Program-made: the position numbers and the translations under genes
Assembly: GCF_003253745.1 (NCBI RefSeq)
Contig: NZ_MZXV01000013.1
Coordinates: 310,001-374,000 of the forward strand
Direction: 5' to 3'
DNA: 64,000 nucleotides
Source: Mesorhizobium kowhaii
Lineage (GTDB): Bacteria; Pseudomonadota; Alphaproteobacteria; Rhizobiales; Rhizobiaceae
In this document: piece by piece, positions 2,775 through 54,182 of the stretch
Position numbering within the stretch: position 1 is the first letter of the stretch
Layout of the letters: each line of letters opens with the position of its first letter
The notes under the pieces: generated by a model
Database searches by the model: none
Told to the model about the DNA's origin: nothing
The model's input: only the letters and a program-made list of their open reading frames with translations

Positions 2775-5477
2775 ATGGCAGCCGTCGCATCGATCTCCCG
2801 ACCAAGCATAGCCTCGCTGGAGGCGCCTCGTCTCGCGCACTATTTTGCAATCGGGCTGATCGCCGGCGCCATCATCGCGCTGCAGATATCCGTCATGCGG
2901 GTGTTCGCCGTCGGCAGCTGGTCGCATTTCGGCTCGCTGGTGGTCAGCCTCGCCATGCTTGGCTTCTCGCTGTCCAGCGTCGTCATCTTCGCCGGCAAGG
3001 ACTGGTTCAATCGGCACTGGCAAGGGGCCGCCACGGCGGCCCTGCTGCTGGTCGGCCCGCTTGCCGTCGCTTCCAACCTCGTTGCCCAGATGGTGCCGTT
3101 CAACGCCATCTTCCTTGTCTCCGACCCCGCGCAGAAATGGCGGCTGCTGGCCAACTTCCTGCTCTATCTCCTGCCGTTCCTGGCCGGCGCGTTCTTCCTC
3201 GGCATCGTCTTCCTGAAAAGCCGCACCGCCTTCGGCCGCGTCTATTTCGCCGACCTCACCGGCTCCGGGCTCGCCGGCCTCGTCGTGCTGGTGTCGATGT
3301 ATCTGTTCGCACCGGAAACCATCATCGTCGTGCCGCTGCTGTTGTGGGCCGCCGGTTCGCTGCTGTGGTTCTTCGCCTTCGGCGCCTGGAAGAACGTCGT
3401 CGCGGGCGCGGTTGTCGCAGCGCTGTCGATCGCCGGGTACCTGATGCTGCCCGGCCTGCTCGGCATACCCGACATTGCGGTGTCGCAGTACAAGGGCGTC
3501 GCCTATGCCCGCAACTTCCCGGACGGCAAACGCATTTACCGCAGCGTTTCGCCGTTTGGCGACCTGCAGGTCTATGCCAGCTCCTACATGCATTTCGCGC
3601 CGGGCCTGAGCGACAATGCCGCCTTCGGCATGCCCGAGGTTCCGGCCAACACCTATGTCGGCATGTATCGCGACGGAGACGGGCCGGAAGGCATCATGCG
3701 CAACCTGGCGCCGGCCGAGCAGGTCTATTTCCGCTATCTGCCGATGCATTACCCCTATGTCATCAAGGCGAAGCCGAAGACCTTCGTCGTGCAGTTCGGC
3801 GGCGGCATCTCCACCCAGGCCGCGCTCAATGCCGGCTCGACCTCGGTGACCGTCGCCGAGAGCAACCCGATGACATTGCGGGCGTTCCGCGACCCGATCC
3901 TGAAAGACGTCACCGGCGATATCCTGGCCGAGCCGCGCCTCAAGGTGATCGACTATGACGGGCGCCTGTTCCTCGCCAACACCGGCGAGCGCTACGACGT
4001 CATCGACCTCAGCCTCGCCGACAGTGTCGGCCTGTCCAATCCGGGCGGCTTCGCCATCGCGGAGAAATACGCCTACACGCACGAGGCGATGCTGAGCTAC
4101 ATGCATGCGTTGGCCGATGGCGGCGTGCTGTCGGTGACCTTGTGGAACAAGGAAGAGCCGCCGAAATCGGTGCTGAAGCTTTATTCGACCGTCGCCGAGG
4201 CGGCCCGGACGTTCGATCCGCAAGGTGCCGCCAACGACATCTTCGCCGTGTCGAGCTATCTCTCGACCACCACGGTGCTGTTCAAGCGCGGCGGCTTCAG
4301 CGCGGCGGAAATCAAGACCTTGCGCGACTACACCAAGTCGATGTCGTGGGAGGAGGTCTACTACCCCGGCATGCCTTATGACGGCTCGACGGCACAAAAA
4401 ATCCTCGACGATTATCGCGCCTCGATCTTTGGCAGCGGACAGGATGCGACGCTGACCCAGCCCGCCGCCGATGCGACGGCGCCGGCCGATCCGACCGCTC
4501 CGAACGCAGCTTGCGACCCGACAACGCCGGCCGATCCGACCCTCGATGCCTGCGCCGATGCTGGCGGCAATGCAGGGCCCGATGTGCTGCCGGCCACCGC
4601 GCTGCAGCGCATGACCTGGCACGCGCTTTTGACCGGCGGCTGGGCGAAGCTTACCAGCGATTATGTCTTTGACGTGCGTCCGCTGAGCAACGACCAGCCC
4701 TACTTCGCCGCCTATGTGAAGGTCGCCGACCTGCCGCTGACGCTGGACCGGCTCGACCTGTTCCAGGATGACTGGGGCTATCTGCTGATCTGGGCGACGC
4801 TCGGCATCGCCTGCATCACGGCGGCATCGTTGGTGCTGCTGCCGGTCATCTTCGGCTGGCGCATCGTGTTCTCGCGCTCGCGCGGCAAGCTCGGCACCAT
4901 CCTCTATTTCGCGTGCCTCGGCCTCGGCTACATCATGGTCGAGGTCGGGCTGATCAGCCGGTTCACCGTGGCGCTCGCCAATCCGACCGTGTCGGCCTCG
5001 GTGCTGATCTCGTCGATGCTGGTGTTTTCCGGTCTCGGCAGCCTGTTTGCCGCGCGCATCTTCGACCGCGCCAGCACGCTGTTGCCTGTCGTGCTGTTGG
5101 CAATCTGCGTGCTGCTGCTGGCCTACGGCTTCACCCTGTCGCCGGTGCTCGACTGGATCGGCGCCTATCCCTATGCCGCCCGGCTGCTGCTCTGCTTCTT
5201 GCTGGTATCGCCGCCGGCCTTCCTGATGGGCATGCCGATGGCGACCGCCATGACCTGGCTGGCGCGGCTCGGCAAGGAGCATTTGTTCGTCTGGGCCTGG
5301 GGCATCAATGGCTGCTTTTCAGTGATTGGCTCGGCCGCCGTGCCGATCGTCGCCACCAGCTTCGGCCTCAGCGCCGTGCTGCAATGGGCGGCGATCGCCT
5401 ATCTCATCGCCATCCCCGCGTTCTTTGCCGTGCTGTTACCGTCGAAGGCGCCGGCCATCCGGCTGGTGACGGCCTGA
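2775..5477 (+). CDS. polytopic membrane protein with internal spermidine-synthase-like domain
   Basis: This 900-residue protein has about seven hydrophobic segments in residues 20-230, a soluble central region (about 235-650) and a second membrane block (about 665-890). The central part has a Rossmann nucleotide-binding signature (FVVQFGGGIS, then AESNP as the acidic strand end, about 335-367) like SpeE-type aminopropyl- or methyltransferases. An Ala/Pro/Asp-rich insert lies at about 560-600. The architecture matches proteins annotated as fused MFS/spermidine synthase, whose substrates are mostly unknown; I do not claim polyamine synthesis. A weak AAGG precedes the ATG. It starts 49 bp after the methyltransferase, and its TGA overlaps the next start (TGATG), which indicates translational coupling. 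Confidence 0.72.
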   Translation: MAAVASISRPSIASLEAPRLAHYFAIGLIAGAIIALQISVMRVFAVGSWSHFGSLVVSLAMLGFSLSSVVIFAGKDWFNRHWQGAATAALLLVGPLAVASNLVAQMVPFNAIFLVSDPAQKWRLLANFLLYLLPFLAGAFFLGIVFLKSRTAFGRVYFADLTGSGLAGLVVLVSMYLFAPETIIVVPLLLWAAGSLLWFFAFGAWKNVVAGAVVAALSIAGYLMLPGLLGIPDIAVSQYKGVAYARNFPDGKRIYRSVSPFGDLQVYASSYMHFAPGLSDNAAFGMPEVPANTYVGMYRDGDGPEGIMRNLAPAEQVYFRYLPMHYPYVIKAKPKTFVVQFGGGISTQAALNAGSTSVTVAESNPMTLRAFRDPILKDVTGDILAEPRLKVIDYDGRLFLANTGERYDVIDLSLADSVGLSNPGGFAIAEKYAYTHEAMLSYMHALADGGVLSVTLWNKEEPPKSVLKLYSTVAEAARTFDPQGAANDIFAVSSYLSTTTVLFKRGGFSAAEIKTLRDYTKSMSWEEVYYPGMPYDGSTAQKILDDYRASIFGSGQDATLTQPAADATAPADPTAPNAACDPTTPADPTLDACADAGGNAGPDVLPATALQRMTWHALLTGGWAKLTSDYVFDVRPLSNDQPYFAAYVKVADLPLTLDRLDLFQDDWGYLLIWATLGIACITAASLVLLPVIFGWRIVFSRSRGKLGTILYFACLGLGYIMVEVGLISRFTVALANPTVSASVLISSMLVFSGLGSLFAARIFDRASTLLPVVLLAICVLLLAYGFTLSPVLDWIGAYPYAARLLLCFLLVSPPAFLMGMPMATAMTWLARLGKEHLFVWAWGINGCFSVIGSAAVPIVATSFGLSAVLQWAAIAYLIAIPAFFAVLLPSKAPAIRLVTA

Positions 5478-48819: not shown

Positions 48820-49794
48820 ATGAACACCAAGCATGCGCCCGTTCTCATCATCGGTTCCGGCCCGGCCGGCTATACGGCGGCGGTCTACGCCGCGCGCGCC
48901 ATGCTGAAGCCGATGCTGGTCGCCGGCCTGCAGCAGGGCGGCCAGTTGATGATCACCACCGATGTCGAGAACTATCCCGGCTTCGCCGACCCCATCCAGG
49001 GTCCGTGGCTGATGGAGCAGATGCTGAAGCAGGCCGAACACGTCGGCACCGACATCATCAACGACATCATCACCGAGGTCGACCTCAATGTGCGACCGTT
49101 CCGCGCCAAGGGCGATTCCGGCACCACCTACACCGCCGACGCGCTGATCATCGCCACCGGCGCGCAAGCCAAATGGCTGGGCATCCCGACCGAACAGACC
49201 TTCATGGGCTTCGGCGTCTCGGCCTGCGCCACCTGCGACGGCTTCTTCTACCGCGGCAAGGATGTCGCGGTGATCGGCGGCGGCAATTCGGCGGTGGAAG
49301 AAGCGCTCTATCTGTCGAACTTGGCCAAGAGCGTGACCGTCATCCACAGGCGCAACGATTTCCGCGCCGAGCGGATCCTGCGCGAGCGGCTCCTGAAGAA
49401 GGACAATGTCCGTGTCATCTGGGACACGATCGTCGACGAGATCACCGGCCGTCCCGGCAAGGCGCCCCTGCCGCCTTCGGTCGAAGGCCTGAAGTTGCGC
49501 AATGCGGTGACCGGCCAGGAAACGCATCTCAAGGTCGACGGCGTGTTCGTGGCCATCGGCCACGCGCCGGCGGTCGAGCTGTTTGCCGGCAAGCTGAAGC
49601 AGAAGCCGAACGGCTATCTGTGGACGGCGCCGGATTCGACCCGCACCGACGTTCCCGGCGTGTTCGCGGCGGGCGACGTGACCGACGACATCTACCGCCA
49701 GGCGGTGACGGCGGCAGGGCTCGGCTGCATGGCGGCACTCGAGGCGGAGAAGTATCTGGCCGGCATCGAAGTGCTCCGCGAAGCGGCGGAGTAG
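48820..49794 (+). CDS. trxB: thioredoxin-disulfide reductase
   Basis: ATG 48820, behind AGAGG, gives 324 residues; the open frame upstream is not part of the protein. FAD motif VLIIGSGPAGYTAAVYAARA, then GGQLMITTDVENYPGFAD, the redox-active SACATCDGFFYRGKDVAVIG (C-A-T-C), the NADPH motif VIGGGNSAVEEALYLSNLAK with IHRRNDFRA, and the closing GVFAAGDVTDDIYRQAVTAA. It reduces thioredoxin with NADPH in the cytoplasm. It is divergent from lrp and 81 bp upstream of lsrB on the same strand. Confidence 0.97.
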   Translation: MNTKHAPVLIIGSGPAGYTAAVYAARAMLKPMLVAGLQQGGQLMITTDVENYPGFADPIQGPWLMEQMLKQAEHVGTDIINDIITEVDLNVRPFRAKGDSGTTYTADALIIATGAQAKWLGIPTEQTFMGFGVSACATCDGFFYRGKDVAVIGGGNSAVEEALYLSNLAKSVTVIHRRNDFRAERILRERLLKKDNVRVIWDTIVDEITGRPGKAPLPPSVEGLKLRNAVTGQETHLKVDGVFVAIGHAPAVELFAGKLKQKPNGYLWTAPDSTRTDVPGVFAAGDVTDDIYRQAVTAAGLGCMAALEAEKYLAGIEVLREAAE

Positions 49795-49875
49795 AGAGAG
49801 TTCAGAAAGCGGCTTATAAAGGCCGTGTAAAAGCCTGATTTTTCATTCAGACGCCAAAACGGAACGAGGGGAATC

Positions 49876-50772
49876 ATGGCGTTGGACTGGGACAAGCTAC
49901 GCGTGTTTCACGCTGCGGCGGAGGCGGGGTCGTTTACCCATGCGGCCGAGACATTGCATCTGTCGCAATCGGCGATCTCGCGGCAGGTCAGCGCGCTCGA
50001 GCATGATGTCGGCGTGCCGCTGTTCAACCGCCACGCCCGCGGGCTGGTGCTGACCGAGCAGGGCGAAATGCTGTTCCGCACGGCGCATGACGTGCTGATG
50101 AAGCTCGAAACCATCAAGTCGCGGCTGACCGAGACCAAGGACCGCCCCTCCGGCGTGCTCAGGGTGACGACCACCGTCGGGCTGGGCGCCGGCTGGCTGA
50201 CCGAGCGGGTCCAGGAGTTCATCGAGCTCTATCCAGAAATCAGCCTGCAGCTGATCCTCGCCAACGAGGAACTGGACCTGACCATGCGCCAGGCCGATTG
50301 CGCCATCCGGCTGCGCCAGCCGCAGCAGCCGGACCTGATCCAACGCCGCCTGTTCACCGTGCATTTCCACCTCTATGCCTCACCCACCTATGTCGCCAAG
50401 CACGGCAAGCCGGCTTCCGTGGCCGAACTGAAGAGCCATCGCATTGTCACCTTCGGCGTGCCGGTGCCGTCGCATCTGTCGGAGCTGAACTGGCTGGAAA
50501 CGGTTGGCGATTTCGAAGGCGGACAAAGGGTGCCGACGCTGCAGATCAACGACATATTGTCGATCAAGCGTGCGGTGCAGGGCGGCGCCGGCATCGCCAT
50601 GCTGCCCGACTATGTGATCAGCAAGGACTCCGACCTGGTGCAATTGCTGCCGGCGACCGAAGTGCCGTCCTTCGACACCTATTTCGCTTATCCGGACGCG
50701 ATGAAGAACCAGGCCAAGCTGCATGTCTTTCGCGATTTCATCATTGCCAAGGCCCGAAGCTGGTCTTTTTGA
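49876..50772 (+). CDS. lsrB: LysR-family regulator LsrB/VtlR
   Basis: 298 residues. N-terminal LysR HTH: LDWDKLRVFHAAAEAGSFTH, AAETLHLSQSAISRQVSALE and FNRHARGLVLTEQGEMLFRT. A periplasmic-binding-fold effector domain follows. The sequence ends with DAMKNQAKLHVFRDFIIAKA. In S. meliloti and Brucella the LysR gene next to trxB is lsrB/vtlR, which controls stress response, LPS and AbcR small RNAs; the assignment here rests on the trxB neighbourhood and the AbcR-type sRNA 0.8 kb downstream. A 12-bp inverted repeat begins at the last base of its stop codon. Confidence 0.85.
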   Translation: MALDWDKLRVFHAAAEAGSFTHAAETLHLSQSAISRQVSALEHDVGVPLFNRHARGLVLTEQGEMLFRTAHDVLMKLETIKSRLTETKDRPSGVLRVTTTVGLGAGWLTERVQEFIELYPEISLQLILANEELDLTMRQADCAIRLRQPQQPDLIQRRLFTVHFHLYASPTYVAKHGKPASVAELKSHRIVTFGVPVPSHLSELNWLETVGDFEGGQRVPTLQINDILSIKRAVQGGAGIAMLPDYVISKDSDLVQLLPATEVPSFDTYFAYPDAMKNQAKLHVFRDFIIAKARSWSF

Positions 50773-50844: not shown

Positions 50845-51342
50845 TCACCCGCGCCAGGGCGTCAGCCGAGGCAGCCAGCCGGGCACAGCGTGGCGATAGG
50901 CTTCGTATTGCGCGCCGTAGCGGCGGGCCAATGTCGGCTCCTCATAGAGCCTGACGAACGACACCATGGCGATCGCGCCGATGACGGCGTAGGCGGCAAG
51001 CGTCCAGCTCGAGAACAGCAGCGCCTGGCCGAGGATGATCGACAGCACCGCGACATACATCGGGTTGCGGACATGGCGGTAGATGCCGCCGATCACCAGT
51101 CTCTCGGTCGGCGCGACCGGAGCGGGCGTGCCCAGCCCCTCGAGCGCAAAGCGGCCAAAGGCATGCAGCAGCGCAGCTGTCGCGGCGACGATCAGGAGCC
51201 CGCCAACAGGGACGAAGCCCGGCAGGCTCGACCATGGCAAGCCCCAGCGATCGGTCAACAGCCAGGGCACCAGCCCGGCTACCACGCCGGGTGCGGCGAT
51301 GAAGAACGCTGCGCTGCCGGCGATCGCCGAAAACGTCCGCAT
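50845..51342 (-). CDS. ICMT-like integral membrane methyltransferase family protein
   Basis: ATG 51342 follows AGGGAGGAAG. The 165-residue protein has about four hydrophobic helices (6-30, 45-65, 98-120, 122-140). The isoprenylcysteine carboxyl methyltransferase / PEMT-type signature is LVIGGIYRHVRNPMYVAVLS, followed by YEEPTLARRYGAQYEAYRHA and PGWLPR at the C-terminus, which together form the SAM-binding loop of this family. Bacterial members rarely methylate prenylcysteine; the substrate is unknown. It lies between lsrB and the AbcR-type sRNA, on the opposite strand to both. Confidence 0.8.
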   Translation of the reverse strand: MRTFSAIAGSAAFFIAAPGVVAGLVPWLLTDRWGLPWSSLPGFVPVGGLLIVAATAALLHAFGRFALEGLGTPAPVAPTERLVIGGIYRHVRNPMYVAVLSIILGQALLFSSWTLAAYAVIGAIAMVSFVRLYEEPTLARRYGAQYEAYRHAVPGWLPRLTPWRG

Positions 51343-51541: not shown

Positions 51542-51564
51542 TTTTGCATGCGTGTGTTGCAAAA
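51542..51564. promoter_or_regulatory. LysR-type dyad upstream of AbcR-type sRNA
   Basis: TTTTGCA and TGCAAAA form a perfect 7-bp inverted repeat with a 9-bp spacer, compatible with a T-N11-A LysR box. The centre is about 55 bp before the predicted sRNA 5' end. Candidate -35 TTGTTT (51572-51577) and -10 TATATA (51597-51602) lie downstream with a 19-bp spacer. Confidence 0.55.
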
Positions 51565-51607
51565 TAGATGCTTGTTTCTTGGGCATGATGAGCAGATATA
51601 TAGATCA

Positions 51608-51722
51608 TCTCCTGGGCGCGTTCTCCTCCCATTAGCGCCCTAGAGTGTTCCCCTCTGGAGGTTAGCCTTAACAGGCACTTCCAATCAAACTCAGCCGGAT
51701 CTTCGTTGATCCGGCTTTTTTG
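51608..51722 (+). ncRNA. abcR: AbcR (alpha-r15 family) trans-acting sRNA
   Basis: The predicted transcript begins near 51608, after a candidate -10 at 51597. Hairpin 1 is GGGCGC (51614) with GCGCCC (51635-51640), and its 15-nt loop contains CTCCTCCC (51623-51630), an anti-Shine-Dalgarno sequence. A second pyrimidine-rich stretch, GTTCCCCTCTGGAGG, follows. The 3' end is an intrinsic terminator (51693-51722). AbcR RNAs in Rhizobiales have this design: an exposed anti-SD loop, a second seed region and a terminator, with Hfq-dependent repression of ABC transporter mRNAs. In S. meliloti they lie beside lsrB, as here. The 5' end is inferred, not seen. Confidence 0.75.
51693..51722 (+). terminator. 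intrinsic terminator of AbcR-type sRNA
   Basis: AGCCGGATC (51693) pairs with GATCCGGCT around a TTCGTT loop and is followed by a run of T. This is a perfect 9-bp stem. Confidence 0.92.
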
Positions 51723-51939
51723 TTGCCCGAGCTCTGCCGGAGCGACTCAAAAATTCATCAGAGTTGCCACGTAACAGTGACATGTAACCTCAGGTAACAT
51801 GACACGGACGCCCGGCACGTGCTATCCAGACGATAGGACGCGGTGTGGTCGTGCGGGAGATGGGGGCATCACTCGGACGGCCCGGGCTCAGGCGGCTACC
51901 GCGTCCGAACCGTTTCTGCCGCCGAAGCTCGACGGCACC

Positions 51940-52026
51940 AATGCGGCGGACCTGCCGTTTTACCTCCCAAGGAAACGGTCCGCAGATAAAACGACGTCCG
52001 GTCCCCGCCGGGCGTCGTTTTCATTT
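51940..52026 (+). ncRNA. candidate second sRNA with CCTCCC loop and terminator
   Basis: CCGTTT (51954) pairs with AAACGG (51973-51978), and the loop contains CCTCCC (51963-51968). A terminator follows: AAAACGACG-T-CCGG pairs with CCGG-G-CGTCGTTTT (51988-52021) around TCCCCG, then CATTT. No coding gene uses this terminator. The 5' end and promoter are not identified; GTAAC direct repeats at 51768-51801 lie upstream. It could be a second AbcR-like or another anti-SD-loop RNA. The GC-rich stretch 51830-51940 holds nothing I recognise. Confidence 0.45.
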
Positions 52027-52028
52027 GG

Positions 52029-52120
52029 CCCCTCGAACCGAGGTTCGAGGGGAACGTGGCATCCTTGTTCTCATGCATGTCGTTGTCCCAAAACCGCTGC
52101 GCAGTTTTGGGCGACATGCA
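52029..52120. repeat. inverted repeat plus intergenic repeat family A (copy 3)
   Basis: A perfect 10-bp stem, CCCCTCGAAC / GTTCGAGGGG (52029-52052), is followed by a family A hairpin (52075-52120) with GCATGTCG, CCCAAAACCG, CAGTTTTGGG and CGACATGC arms. It ends eleven bases before the EF-G-like stop codon. Confidence 0.75.
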
Positions 52121-52130
52121 TCAGATGGAA

Positions 52131-54182
52131 TCAGGCAGCCTTGCCGTTGGTGTTCATCGCCTCGTCGGCGAGACGCCCGGTGAGTTCAGCCATGTGGTCG
52201 AAGACGGCACGGTAGCTGGCGACGCCAGCGGTCGCCGAGCGCAATTCGATGATCAGGTCGCCGATCTCGGCTTGCGGCATGGTTGCCTCGACGACATCCC
52301 ATCCCGGCCAGTCAGGCCGCGCATCATAGCCGAGGATCTGGCCGCGCCGCTGCGGGATGAGCGCGATGATCTTCGAGGTCGCGTCGGAGGGCGTGACGAT
52401 CTCGACCTTCATCACCGGCTCCAGAAGCACCGGTGCGCAGGCGGCCATGCCTTCCTTCATCGCCAGCCTGGCCGCCATCTGGAAGGCCATGTCGGAGGAA
52501 TCAACCGCGTGGTAGGAGCCGTCCGACAGGTTGACGGCGACATCGACGACGGGAAAGCCGAGCGGGCCGGACTTCAGATAGTCACGCACGCCGGTTTCGA
52601 CCGACTGGATATAGGTCTTCGGCACGACGCCGCCGGTGATGGTGTCGGTGAACTGGAAGCCGGAGCCGCGCGGCAGCGGCTTGATCTCGATCACCACGTC
52701 GCCGAACTGGCCATGGCCTCCGGACTGTTTCTTGTGACGGCCGCGCTGCTGCGCCGCTTTGCGGATCGTCTCGCGATAGGGCACCGCCGGCGCATGGCCT
52801 TCGACCGGGATCTGGTTCTTGCCTTCCAGCCGCTCGCGCACGACGCGCAGATGCATCTCGCCATGGCCCGACAGCACGGTCTCGGCCGAGTCTTGGTTGT
52901 GGCGCAGGCTGAGCGAAGGGTCTTCCTCGGCCAGCCGCTGGATGGCGGCCGACATCTTCACTTCGTCCTTGCGCTCCTTGGGGCGCAGCGCGAAAGCGAA
53001 GACCGGCTGCGGCGGCTCGAACTCAAGCAACGGCTTGATGCCGCCCTTGGCCGAACTCAGCGTCTGGCCGGTCTTGACCTCGTCCAGCTTGCCCAGCGCC
53101 ACCGTGTCGCCGGCCTTGGCGATGGTGAGCTTGAACTGGTCCTTGCCGAGCATTCGGTAGATCCCGGAAACCTTCGCCGTGTCGCCGCCGGGCAGCCAGA
53201 GTTCGGAGCCGTCGACGACCTGGCCGGACAGGATGCGCGACACCGACAGCTTGCCGCCATGTGGCGTGTGGATGGTCTTCATCACCTGAGCCACGGTGGC
53301 CGCGCCGTCGGGCGCGCCGAGCCGCTTGCGGGTCGCCTCGATGTCGGGCGCGTCGTGGCGGATCGCCTTCAAGAGGCGCAGCACGCCGTTGCCTTTCTCG
53401 GCGGTGCCGATCAGCACCGGTGTCACCGCGCCATCGCGCAGATCGGCGGCGAGGTCGTCGAAGACGGCGTCCTTGGGCGGCTCGATCTCCTCGAGCAGCT
53501 GTTCCATCAGCTGGTCGTCATGGTCGGCCAGTGTCTCCAGCATGGAGAAGCGCGCCTCCAGTTCGCGCGCCTTGTCGTCGCCCGGTATTTCGGTCACTTC
53601 ACTCTCGGCATATTCGCGATAGATGTAGGCCCGCTCCAGCGCCAGATCGATCGAGCCGATGACGACGCCATCCTTGCGCAGCGGAATCTGGCGCAGCAGC
53701 AACGGCACGGCGCTGGCCGGCTGCAGCATCTTCAGCGTGTCGCGCACGCCGGCGATTGCCTTGTCGACCTTGTTGAGGAACAGGATGCGCGGCACGCCAA
53801 GATCGTCGAGCCTGCGCATGATCAGCTGCAGGGCGGGGATCTTCTTTTCGTCGGCCTCGGCAACGACCACAGCGAGGTCGCAGGCGGCCAGCACCGGCTC
53901 GGCCTCGAAGGCGAATTCGATGGAGCCGGGACAATCGACGAAAGTAAGCTGCTCGCCCATGAATTCGGTGGTGGCGAAGGTCGCCTCGACGCTCATCGCG
54001 TGGGCGCGCGCCTCTGGCGAATGATCTGAAACGGTGTTGCCCGATGAGACGGGATTTTGTCGGGGAATTGAGCCAGTGCGGGCCAATATGGCTTCGAGAA
54101 GTGTCGTCTTACCGCTTGCGAAGGGACCGATTATGGCAATGCATTTCGGTCCCGTGCGTCGTCCTCCGGCGCGAGTACCCAT
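52131..54182 (-). CDS. elongation factor G-like translational GTPase
   Basis: 683 residues, ATG 54182 behind GGAGG. G-domain motifs: IGPFASGKTTLLEAIL (P-loop), FVDCPGS (DxxG) and FLNKVDKA (NKxD). Domain II onwards includes LSGHGEMHLRVVRERLEGK, GGHGQFGDVVIEIKPL (domain IV/V region), VGFPVVD-like GPLGFPVVDVAVNLSDGSYH and a C-terminal MPQAEIGDLIIELRSAT. The architecture is that of EF-G, but the N-terminus is short and divergent (RTGPKCIAIIGPFASGK), so it is the EF-G-like paralogue often named FusA2, not the main factor next to tufA. Its role (translation under stress or ribosome rescue) is unproven. Confidence 0.85.
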   Translation of the reverse strand: MGTRAGGRRTGPKCIAIIGPFASGKTTLLEAILARTGSIPRQNPVSSGNTVSDHSPEARAHAMSVEATFATTEFMGEQLTFVDCPGSIEFAFEAEPVLAACDLAVVVAEADEKKIPALQLIMRRLDDLGVPRILFLNKVDKAIAGVRDTLKMLQPASAVPLLLRQIPLRKDGVVIGSIDLALERAYIYREYAESEVTEIPGDDKARELEARFSMLETLADHDDQLMEQLLEEIEPPKDAVFDDLAADLRDGAVTPVLIGTAEKGNGVLRLLKAIRHDAPDIEATRKRLGAPDGAATVAQVMKTIHTPHGGKLSVSRILSGQVVDGSELWLPGGDTAKVSGIYRMLGKDQFKLTIAKAGDTVALGKLDEVKTGQTLSSAKGGIKPLLEFEPPQPVFAFALRPKERKDEVKMSAAIQRLAEEDPSLSLRHNQDSAETVLSGHGEMHLRVVRERLEGKNQIPVEGHAPAVPYRETIRKAAQQRGRHKKQSGGHGQFGDVVIEIKPLPRGSGFQFTDTITGGVVPKTYIQSVETGVRDYLKSGPLGFPVVDVAVNLSDGSYHAVDSSDMAFQMAARLAMKEGMAACAPVLLEPVMKVEIVTPSDATSKIIALIPQRRGQILGYDARPDWPGWDVVEATMPQAEIGDLIIELRSATAGVASYRAVFDHMAELTGRLADEAMNTNGKAA

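Follow-up and report, generated by a model that had tools for sequence, protein, structure and literature searches.

The RNA gene described here lies on the plus strand of the window (the whole stretch of DNA that was analysed, 64 kb in length), downstream of the thioredoxin reductase gene trxB and the LysR-type regulator gene lsrB, in an intergenic region that is closed by a gene for an EF-G-like GTPase. The locus comprises the following features.

48820-49794 (+): trxB, thioredoxin reductase (TIGR01292 above cut-off)
49866-49873 (+): ribosome-binding site of lsrB, GAGGGGAA, the exact complement of aSD2
49876-50772 (+): lsrB, LysR-type regulator (LysR substrate and HTH domains), the proposed activator and possible target of the RNA
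50845-51342 (-): ICMT/PEMT-like methyltransferase gene (PF04191, PF04140)
51546-51558 (+): match to the LsrB box, GCATGCGTGTGTT, at -61, in accordance with the consensus and position given in PMC8844928
51571-51599 (+): sigma70-like core promoter, recognised by eye (CTTGTT at 51571-51576, N17, AGATAT at 51594-51599)
51607-51721 (+): AbcR (αr15) sRNA (Rfam RF02345, fold z-score, locus conservation)
51623-51630 (+): aSD1, CUCCUCCC, in the loop of hairpin 1
51648-51655 (+): aSD2, UUCCCCUC, single-stranded, between hairpins 1 and 2
51693-51721 (+): intrinsic terminator, a 9-pair stem (51693-51716) followed by a T run
51771-51798 (+): operator-like triple GTAAC repeat, with starts 13 and 10 bp apart, 5' of RNA2
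51833-52021 (+): RNA2, a structured RNA with its own terminator at the end (model matches, covariation)
52131-54182 (-): EF-G-like GTPase gene (NF009379)

A preliminary description of this DNA had proposed an AbcR-type sRNA beside lsrB, with a hairpin loop that exposes a seed, a pyrimidine-rich second seed and a terminator, and had called for a search with the αr15 covariance model. That search supports the assignment: RF02345 (ar15) aligns in full (model positions 1-112 of 112) to 51607-51721 (+), scoring 44.8 bits where gathering is 40 (E 6.6e-06 in the 64 kb window); the match begins one base 5' of the start previously given (51608), and it is the sole gathering-level Rfam match within the window. 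The margin over gathering is only 4.8 bits, and scores of 100-127 bits are attained by copies from certain other genera of the family. The fold of 51608-51722 is predicted at -46.5 kcal/mol, compared with a mean of -26.95 for shuffled sequences (z -6.29; 0/200 shuffles as good). In this predicted fold the loop sequence CTCCTCCC (aSD1, 51623-51630) has a mean unpaired probability of 1.00 and the second seed TTCCCCTC (aSD2, 51648-51655) one of 0.96, so both seeds are exposed, and the terminator is present in the form of the stem and T run listed above. Both aSD motifs are identical to the proven motifs of S. meliloti, where they were dissected genetically in AbcR1 and AbcR2 (PMC8844928).

Named genomes were scanned with LsrB and the best 80 loci were taken; 77 carry a Mesorhizobium title. 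In 79 of the 80, lsrB is followed by the RNA with both seeds; the exception (L114) is a contig that ends just before the RNA. These 79 loci and the window make up a set of 80 RNA sequences, and both aSD motifs are present in all of them. An lsrB relative was detected at E <= 1e-80 in 196 of 199 family genomes. Both S. meliloti and A. tumefaciens have AbcR homologues adjoining trxB-lsrB (PMC3712013, PMC7486931), the linkage that the preliminary description had named. It had also described the RNA as separated from lsrB by an ICMT-like gene, and this gene does occupy that position on the opposite strand, both here and in 74 of the 79 loci. It is absent between lsrB and AbcR in the other five (L049, L051, L074, L084 and L094), and must therefore have been gained or lost among close relatives. 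The AbcR identity of the RNA is secure, and as a family member the RNA is ordinary; the less ordinary parts of the locus are RNA2 and the match between the lsrB ribosome-binding site and aSD2. Both go beyond the preliminary description, as do the match to the LsrB consensus and the presence of two paralogues in the genome.

The LsrB box of AbcR1 has been defined as GCAT-N3-TG-N3-T, located at -61 to -49 (PMC8844928). Across the set of 80 sequences the match to this box is exact in 70 (58 at -61, 12 at -62), and the remaining 10 deviate from it at a single base. Of 80 lsrB loci sampled across the family (79 from other genera), 49 (48 from other genera) are followed by an αr15-like pattern; an LsrB box is found 75-85 bases before aSD1 in 32 of these 49 linked loci, as against 0/49 for the reversed string, and 17 of the 49 have none. 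With the published consensus for LsrB binding matched at -61, the RNA is probably activated by LsrB and of the AbcR1 type. The sigma70-like core has the correct N17 spacing, and each of its hexamers agrees by eye at 4/6 positions with the reference core promoter CTTGAC-N17-CTATAT (PMC8844928); a generic promoter scan detected none. The literature on LsrB control in S. meliloti disagrees: PMC7486931 reports no effect of LsrB on AbcR in strain 1021, whereas the later report describes LsrB as indispensable (PMC8844928). By analogy with the proven homologues in Sinorhizobium and Agrobacterium, LsrB would bind the candidate box and recruit RNA polymerase.

AbcR RNAs govern rhizobial nutrient use around roots, with nutrient-uptake genes being switched off. 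On the model of the same homologues, the RNA of about 115 nt would, together with Hfq, pair via aSD1 or aSD2 with the ribosome-binding sites of mRNAs, mostly those for uptake and metabolism, and block their translation; in S. meliloti, the mRNA partners of AbcR correspond to 6% of the protein genes (PMC8844928). We infer with high confidence that 51607-51721 is a chromosomal, LsrB-controlled AbcR1-type αr15 sRNA, taking its AbcR identity jointly with the scheme in which LsrB acts through AbcR to silence mRNAs. Judged by seed match only, substrate-binding proteins account for 7 of 33 genes with a perfect aSD complement, compared with 3 of 26 controls, no significant enrichment (p 0.49). The 33 genes derive from 36 aSD1 and 22 aSD2 pattern matches, of which 15 and 10, respectively, were dropped before the count (frame <80 codons). 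For the control, the first 30 of 44 matches had loci, 4 of the 30 were dropped, and the figure of 3/26 was obtained by manual reading. The seven substrate-binding matches include a tripartite-transporter receptor (L141) and a fragment with an internal-looking start (L136).

Among the candidate targets is lsrB itself. A complement of aSD2 just before an ATG occurs 22 times in the genome, compared with 7 in a backward control, and the lsrB ribosome-binding site (49866-49878) is one of the 22. When lsrB starts were compared (n=81: the 80 named loci and the window), GAGGGGAA was kept in 60 and GAGGGG in 78, against 0/77 trxB starts and 0/78 lrp starts (the lrp start being uncertain). Because the lsrB ribosome-binding site is the complement of aSD2, and because GAGGGG is kept at lsrB (78/81) and not at trxB (0/77), a negative loop is suggested in which LsrB activates AbcR and AbcR represses lsrB. 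Under this proposal, AbcR would silence lsrB via aSD2 at the lsrB ribosome-binding site; if lsrB mRNA is a target of this kind, the circuit would be self-limiting, and the loop back to LsrB would explain the bounded output of a redox regulator. Together with the family comparison below, these sequence patterns make a fair case for the loop, which we rate somewhat below an even chance.

For this feedback step only, a competing explanation holds that the GAGGGG-type site of lsrB is kept for its translation rate and that AbcR has no action there; we judge it to be evenly poised between true and false. The aSD2 complementarity overlaps the complementarity to 16S rRNA, and GAGGGG before an ATG is not rare (349 genome matches compared with 100 in the backward control), while the looser RGGGGA, found at 61 of 81 lsrB sites, is also found at 22 of 77 trxB sites. 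The longer GAGGGGAA, by contrast, is rare (the 22 versus 7 matches given above), which argues against an explanation by translation rate, as do the exclusive retention of GAGGGG at lsrB in the comparison with trxB and lrp and the predicted pairing between aSD2 and the lsrB leader, which only 3 of 500 shuffled leaders equalled. A published statement that lsrB is constitutively expressed in A. tumefaciens (PMC11975290) leans towards translation rate, as does the predicted fold of the lsrB leader, in which the SD is only partly open (unpaired 0.25-0.63). Passages of PMC8844928, PMC7486931, PMC10746234 and PMC11975290, and the literature listings that were searched, mention no sRNA that targets lsrB.

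The two explanations were also compared across the family, using 92 lsrB loci, 91 of them from other genera and several genera represented more than once. The 72 loci of the group with an αr15 match include sub-cut-off matches; the 20 genomes without ar15 come from 14 genera and are those with no search match, in some cases inferred by absence from the match list (28 matchless genomes being unlisted), in a search whose stricter filters can miss weak copies. RGGGGA is present in 47/72 lsrB sites of the former group and 6/20 of the latter (p 0.009, kinship uncorrected), and aSD2 pairing is stronger in the lsrB loci of αr15-positive genomes (p 0.006, kinship uncorrected), whereas no difference between groups was seen for pairing with 16S rRNA (p 0.28), which speaks against translation rate as the reason for the difference. 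A background set of open reading frames, some of them with wrong starts, carries no weight in this comparison. On the other side, aSD1 pairing is likewise stronger with αr15 (p 0.04, kinship uncorrected), and GAGGGG is still present in 4/20 genomes without detected ar15. At <70% LsrB identity the difference in aSD2 pairing is only a trend (p 0.09), and so is that in RGGGGA among distant family loci (16/28 with and 5/18 without αr15, p 0.07), kinship being uncorrected in both cases.

Three gathering-level αr15 copies were identified in the genome, so that the lsrB-linked RNA has two paralogues. One of these (L004, 4917-5003) is preceded by plasmid replication genes and one cold-shock gene (frames read manually), and the same order of repABC, cold-shock gene and αr15 RNA is found on two M. 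huakuii plasmids, with the RNA above gathering. Upstream of copies of this type, GTTGAA-N16-CCCATAT is present in 3/3 sequences (L004; L326:4358-4445; L327:4351-4444), a sequence similar to CTTGAA-N16-CCTATAT, the RpoH1-type promoter that AbcR2 is reported to have (PMC8844928), and no LsrB box was found in any of the three. Based on this RpoH1-like promoter and the missing LsrB box, the genome seems to keep both an LsrB-type and a stress-type AbcR, with the stress-type copy probably on a plasmid. The third copy (L005:5286-5382) is located between 2OG-oxygenase-like and flavin-monooxygenase-like genes (frames read manually), and neither an LsrB box nor an RpoH1-like promoter was found upstream of it. 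One of the two M. huakuii plasmids (L326) is pMHb of strain 7653R (CP006583.2), where the αr15 match at 4358-4445 scores 48.1 bits and is of gathering level; AbcR1/2 have been stated to be undiscovered in this strain (PMC5596092).

With two other gathering-level copies in the genome, a low Rfam score and weak core promoter hexamers, the lsrB-linked RNA could be a decayed, silent copy, with one of the paralogues as the working AbcR; this is very improbable, since the RNA is at least 93% identical in 79 of the 80 named loci (the other being cut by the contig edge) and its aSD motifs are invariant over the 80 sequences while the flanks drift, and since the promoter block 51557-51586 is nearly invariant across the named loci. 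There is just as little to recommend the view that the RNA is NfeR1/αr14-like, related to but distinct from αr15: the aSD loops are similar, NfeR1 is also activated by LsrB (PMC10746234), and cmscan left out one lower-scoring overlapping match to a same-clan Rfam family whose name was not shown, but the best-scoring clan member is ar15, above gathering, the RNA has two different aSD motifs where NfeR1 is described with three identical ones (PMC8844928), and its place at the lsrB locus is that of AbcR1/2 in S. meliloti (PMC3712013).

As an AbcR1-type RNA, it resembles S. meliloti AbcR1 (αr15, Smr15C2) in CUCCUCCC and UUCCCCUC, the 5' hairpin and the terminator, as well as in its place beside lsrB and the equal distance of the LsrB box (PMC8844928, PMC3712013); unlike there, the ICMT-like gene intervenes between the RNA and lsrB in the window. 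A. tumefaciens AbcR1 is similarly located behind trxB-vtlR/lsrB and is VtlR-dependent (PMC7486931). In S. meliloti a second αr15 RNA (AbcR2) follows in tandem, and in A. tumefaciens the tandem AbcR1-AbcR2 is followed by an ArsR-type gene (PMC7486931), whereas here AbcR is followed by a non-αr15 RNA and then by the EF-G-like gene. NfeR1 of S. meliloti offers a parallel to the proposed loop, as an LsrB-activated sRNA of the aSD type that feeds back on the mRNA of a regulator, ntrBC, although the feedback regulator shown in that case is NtrBC and not LsrB (PMC10746234).

The RNA that occupies the place of S. meliloti AbcR2 is RNA2. Conservation resumes 3' of AbcR with the GTAAC operator, followed by the RNA2 hairpins and terminator. 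RNA2 belongs to no Rfam 15 family; of the same-strand matches that span most of the RNA, the best is ncS035 (17.5 of 79 bits, E 0.15). When a model was constructed with 45 sequences taken from the window and the named loci, it matched 79 of the 80 named loci, one of them (L084) more weakly, and the only locus without a match was the truncated L114; an earlier regex for cutting out RNA2 had missed 12/80 sequences. Among the 199 family genomes, RNA2 was detected in 28 at E <= 0.001, including 21 strong matches (E <= 1e-5) in 13 genera; each of the 21 strong loci has an AbcR pattern upstream, and 15 of them also match the regex for the triple GTAAC operator. In an alignment of these sequences (n=21), which was fitted to the model and so favours structure, 95.5% of cells pair and 25 of 46 pairs change on both sides, compared with 9.3 in shuffles (0/500 as high); slid controls gave 6-11 such pairs, with 35.5-43.4% paired. 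From this strong covariation, we regard RNA2 as a genuine RNA gene that has no Rfam family. Its hairpin exposing CCUCCC in the window is more weakly conserved (86% paired in helix 6 and 73% in helix 7), and the C-rich loop of this hairpin is missing in several distant genera.

Several candidate roles and regulators were considered for RNA2 and rejected. The published ChvI motifs (TTGC-N3-GCAA and GCC direct repeats; PMC9731502) do not match the GTAAC repeats, and a literature search for ChvI with a GTAAC motif found no paper; the inverted repeat published for CenR (AgTCAC..GTgAct; PMC9561847) also differs from the operator. An identification with ChvR was set aside, because chvR is described in a figure legend as specific to C. 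crescentus (PMC6237742). For a role as an AbcR sponge, whole-RNA duplex energies were uninformative, and the GGGAG capable of pairing with aSD1 lacks conservation across genera. Taken together with the proposed loop, the lsrB locus of Mesorhizobium and relatives might constitute a self-limiting module that operates via the GAGGGG(AA) ribosome-binding site, into which RNA2 may feed another, GTAAC-read signal; we advance this scheme tentatively, as somewhat more likely to fail than to hold.

A palindromic hairpin, TGCATGTCG...CGACATGCA, is located at 52046-52131 (-) of the window, with a similar one at approximately 5133-5187 of the locus that carries the third αr15 copy (L005). The hairpin at 52046-52131 (-) gives a sub-threshold match to Brucella BASRCI27 (30.5 of 59.8 bits), and the element common to the two sites looks like a dispersed repeat.
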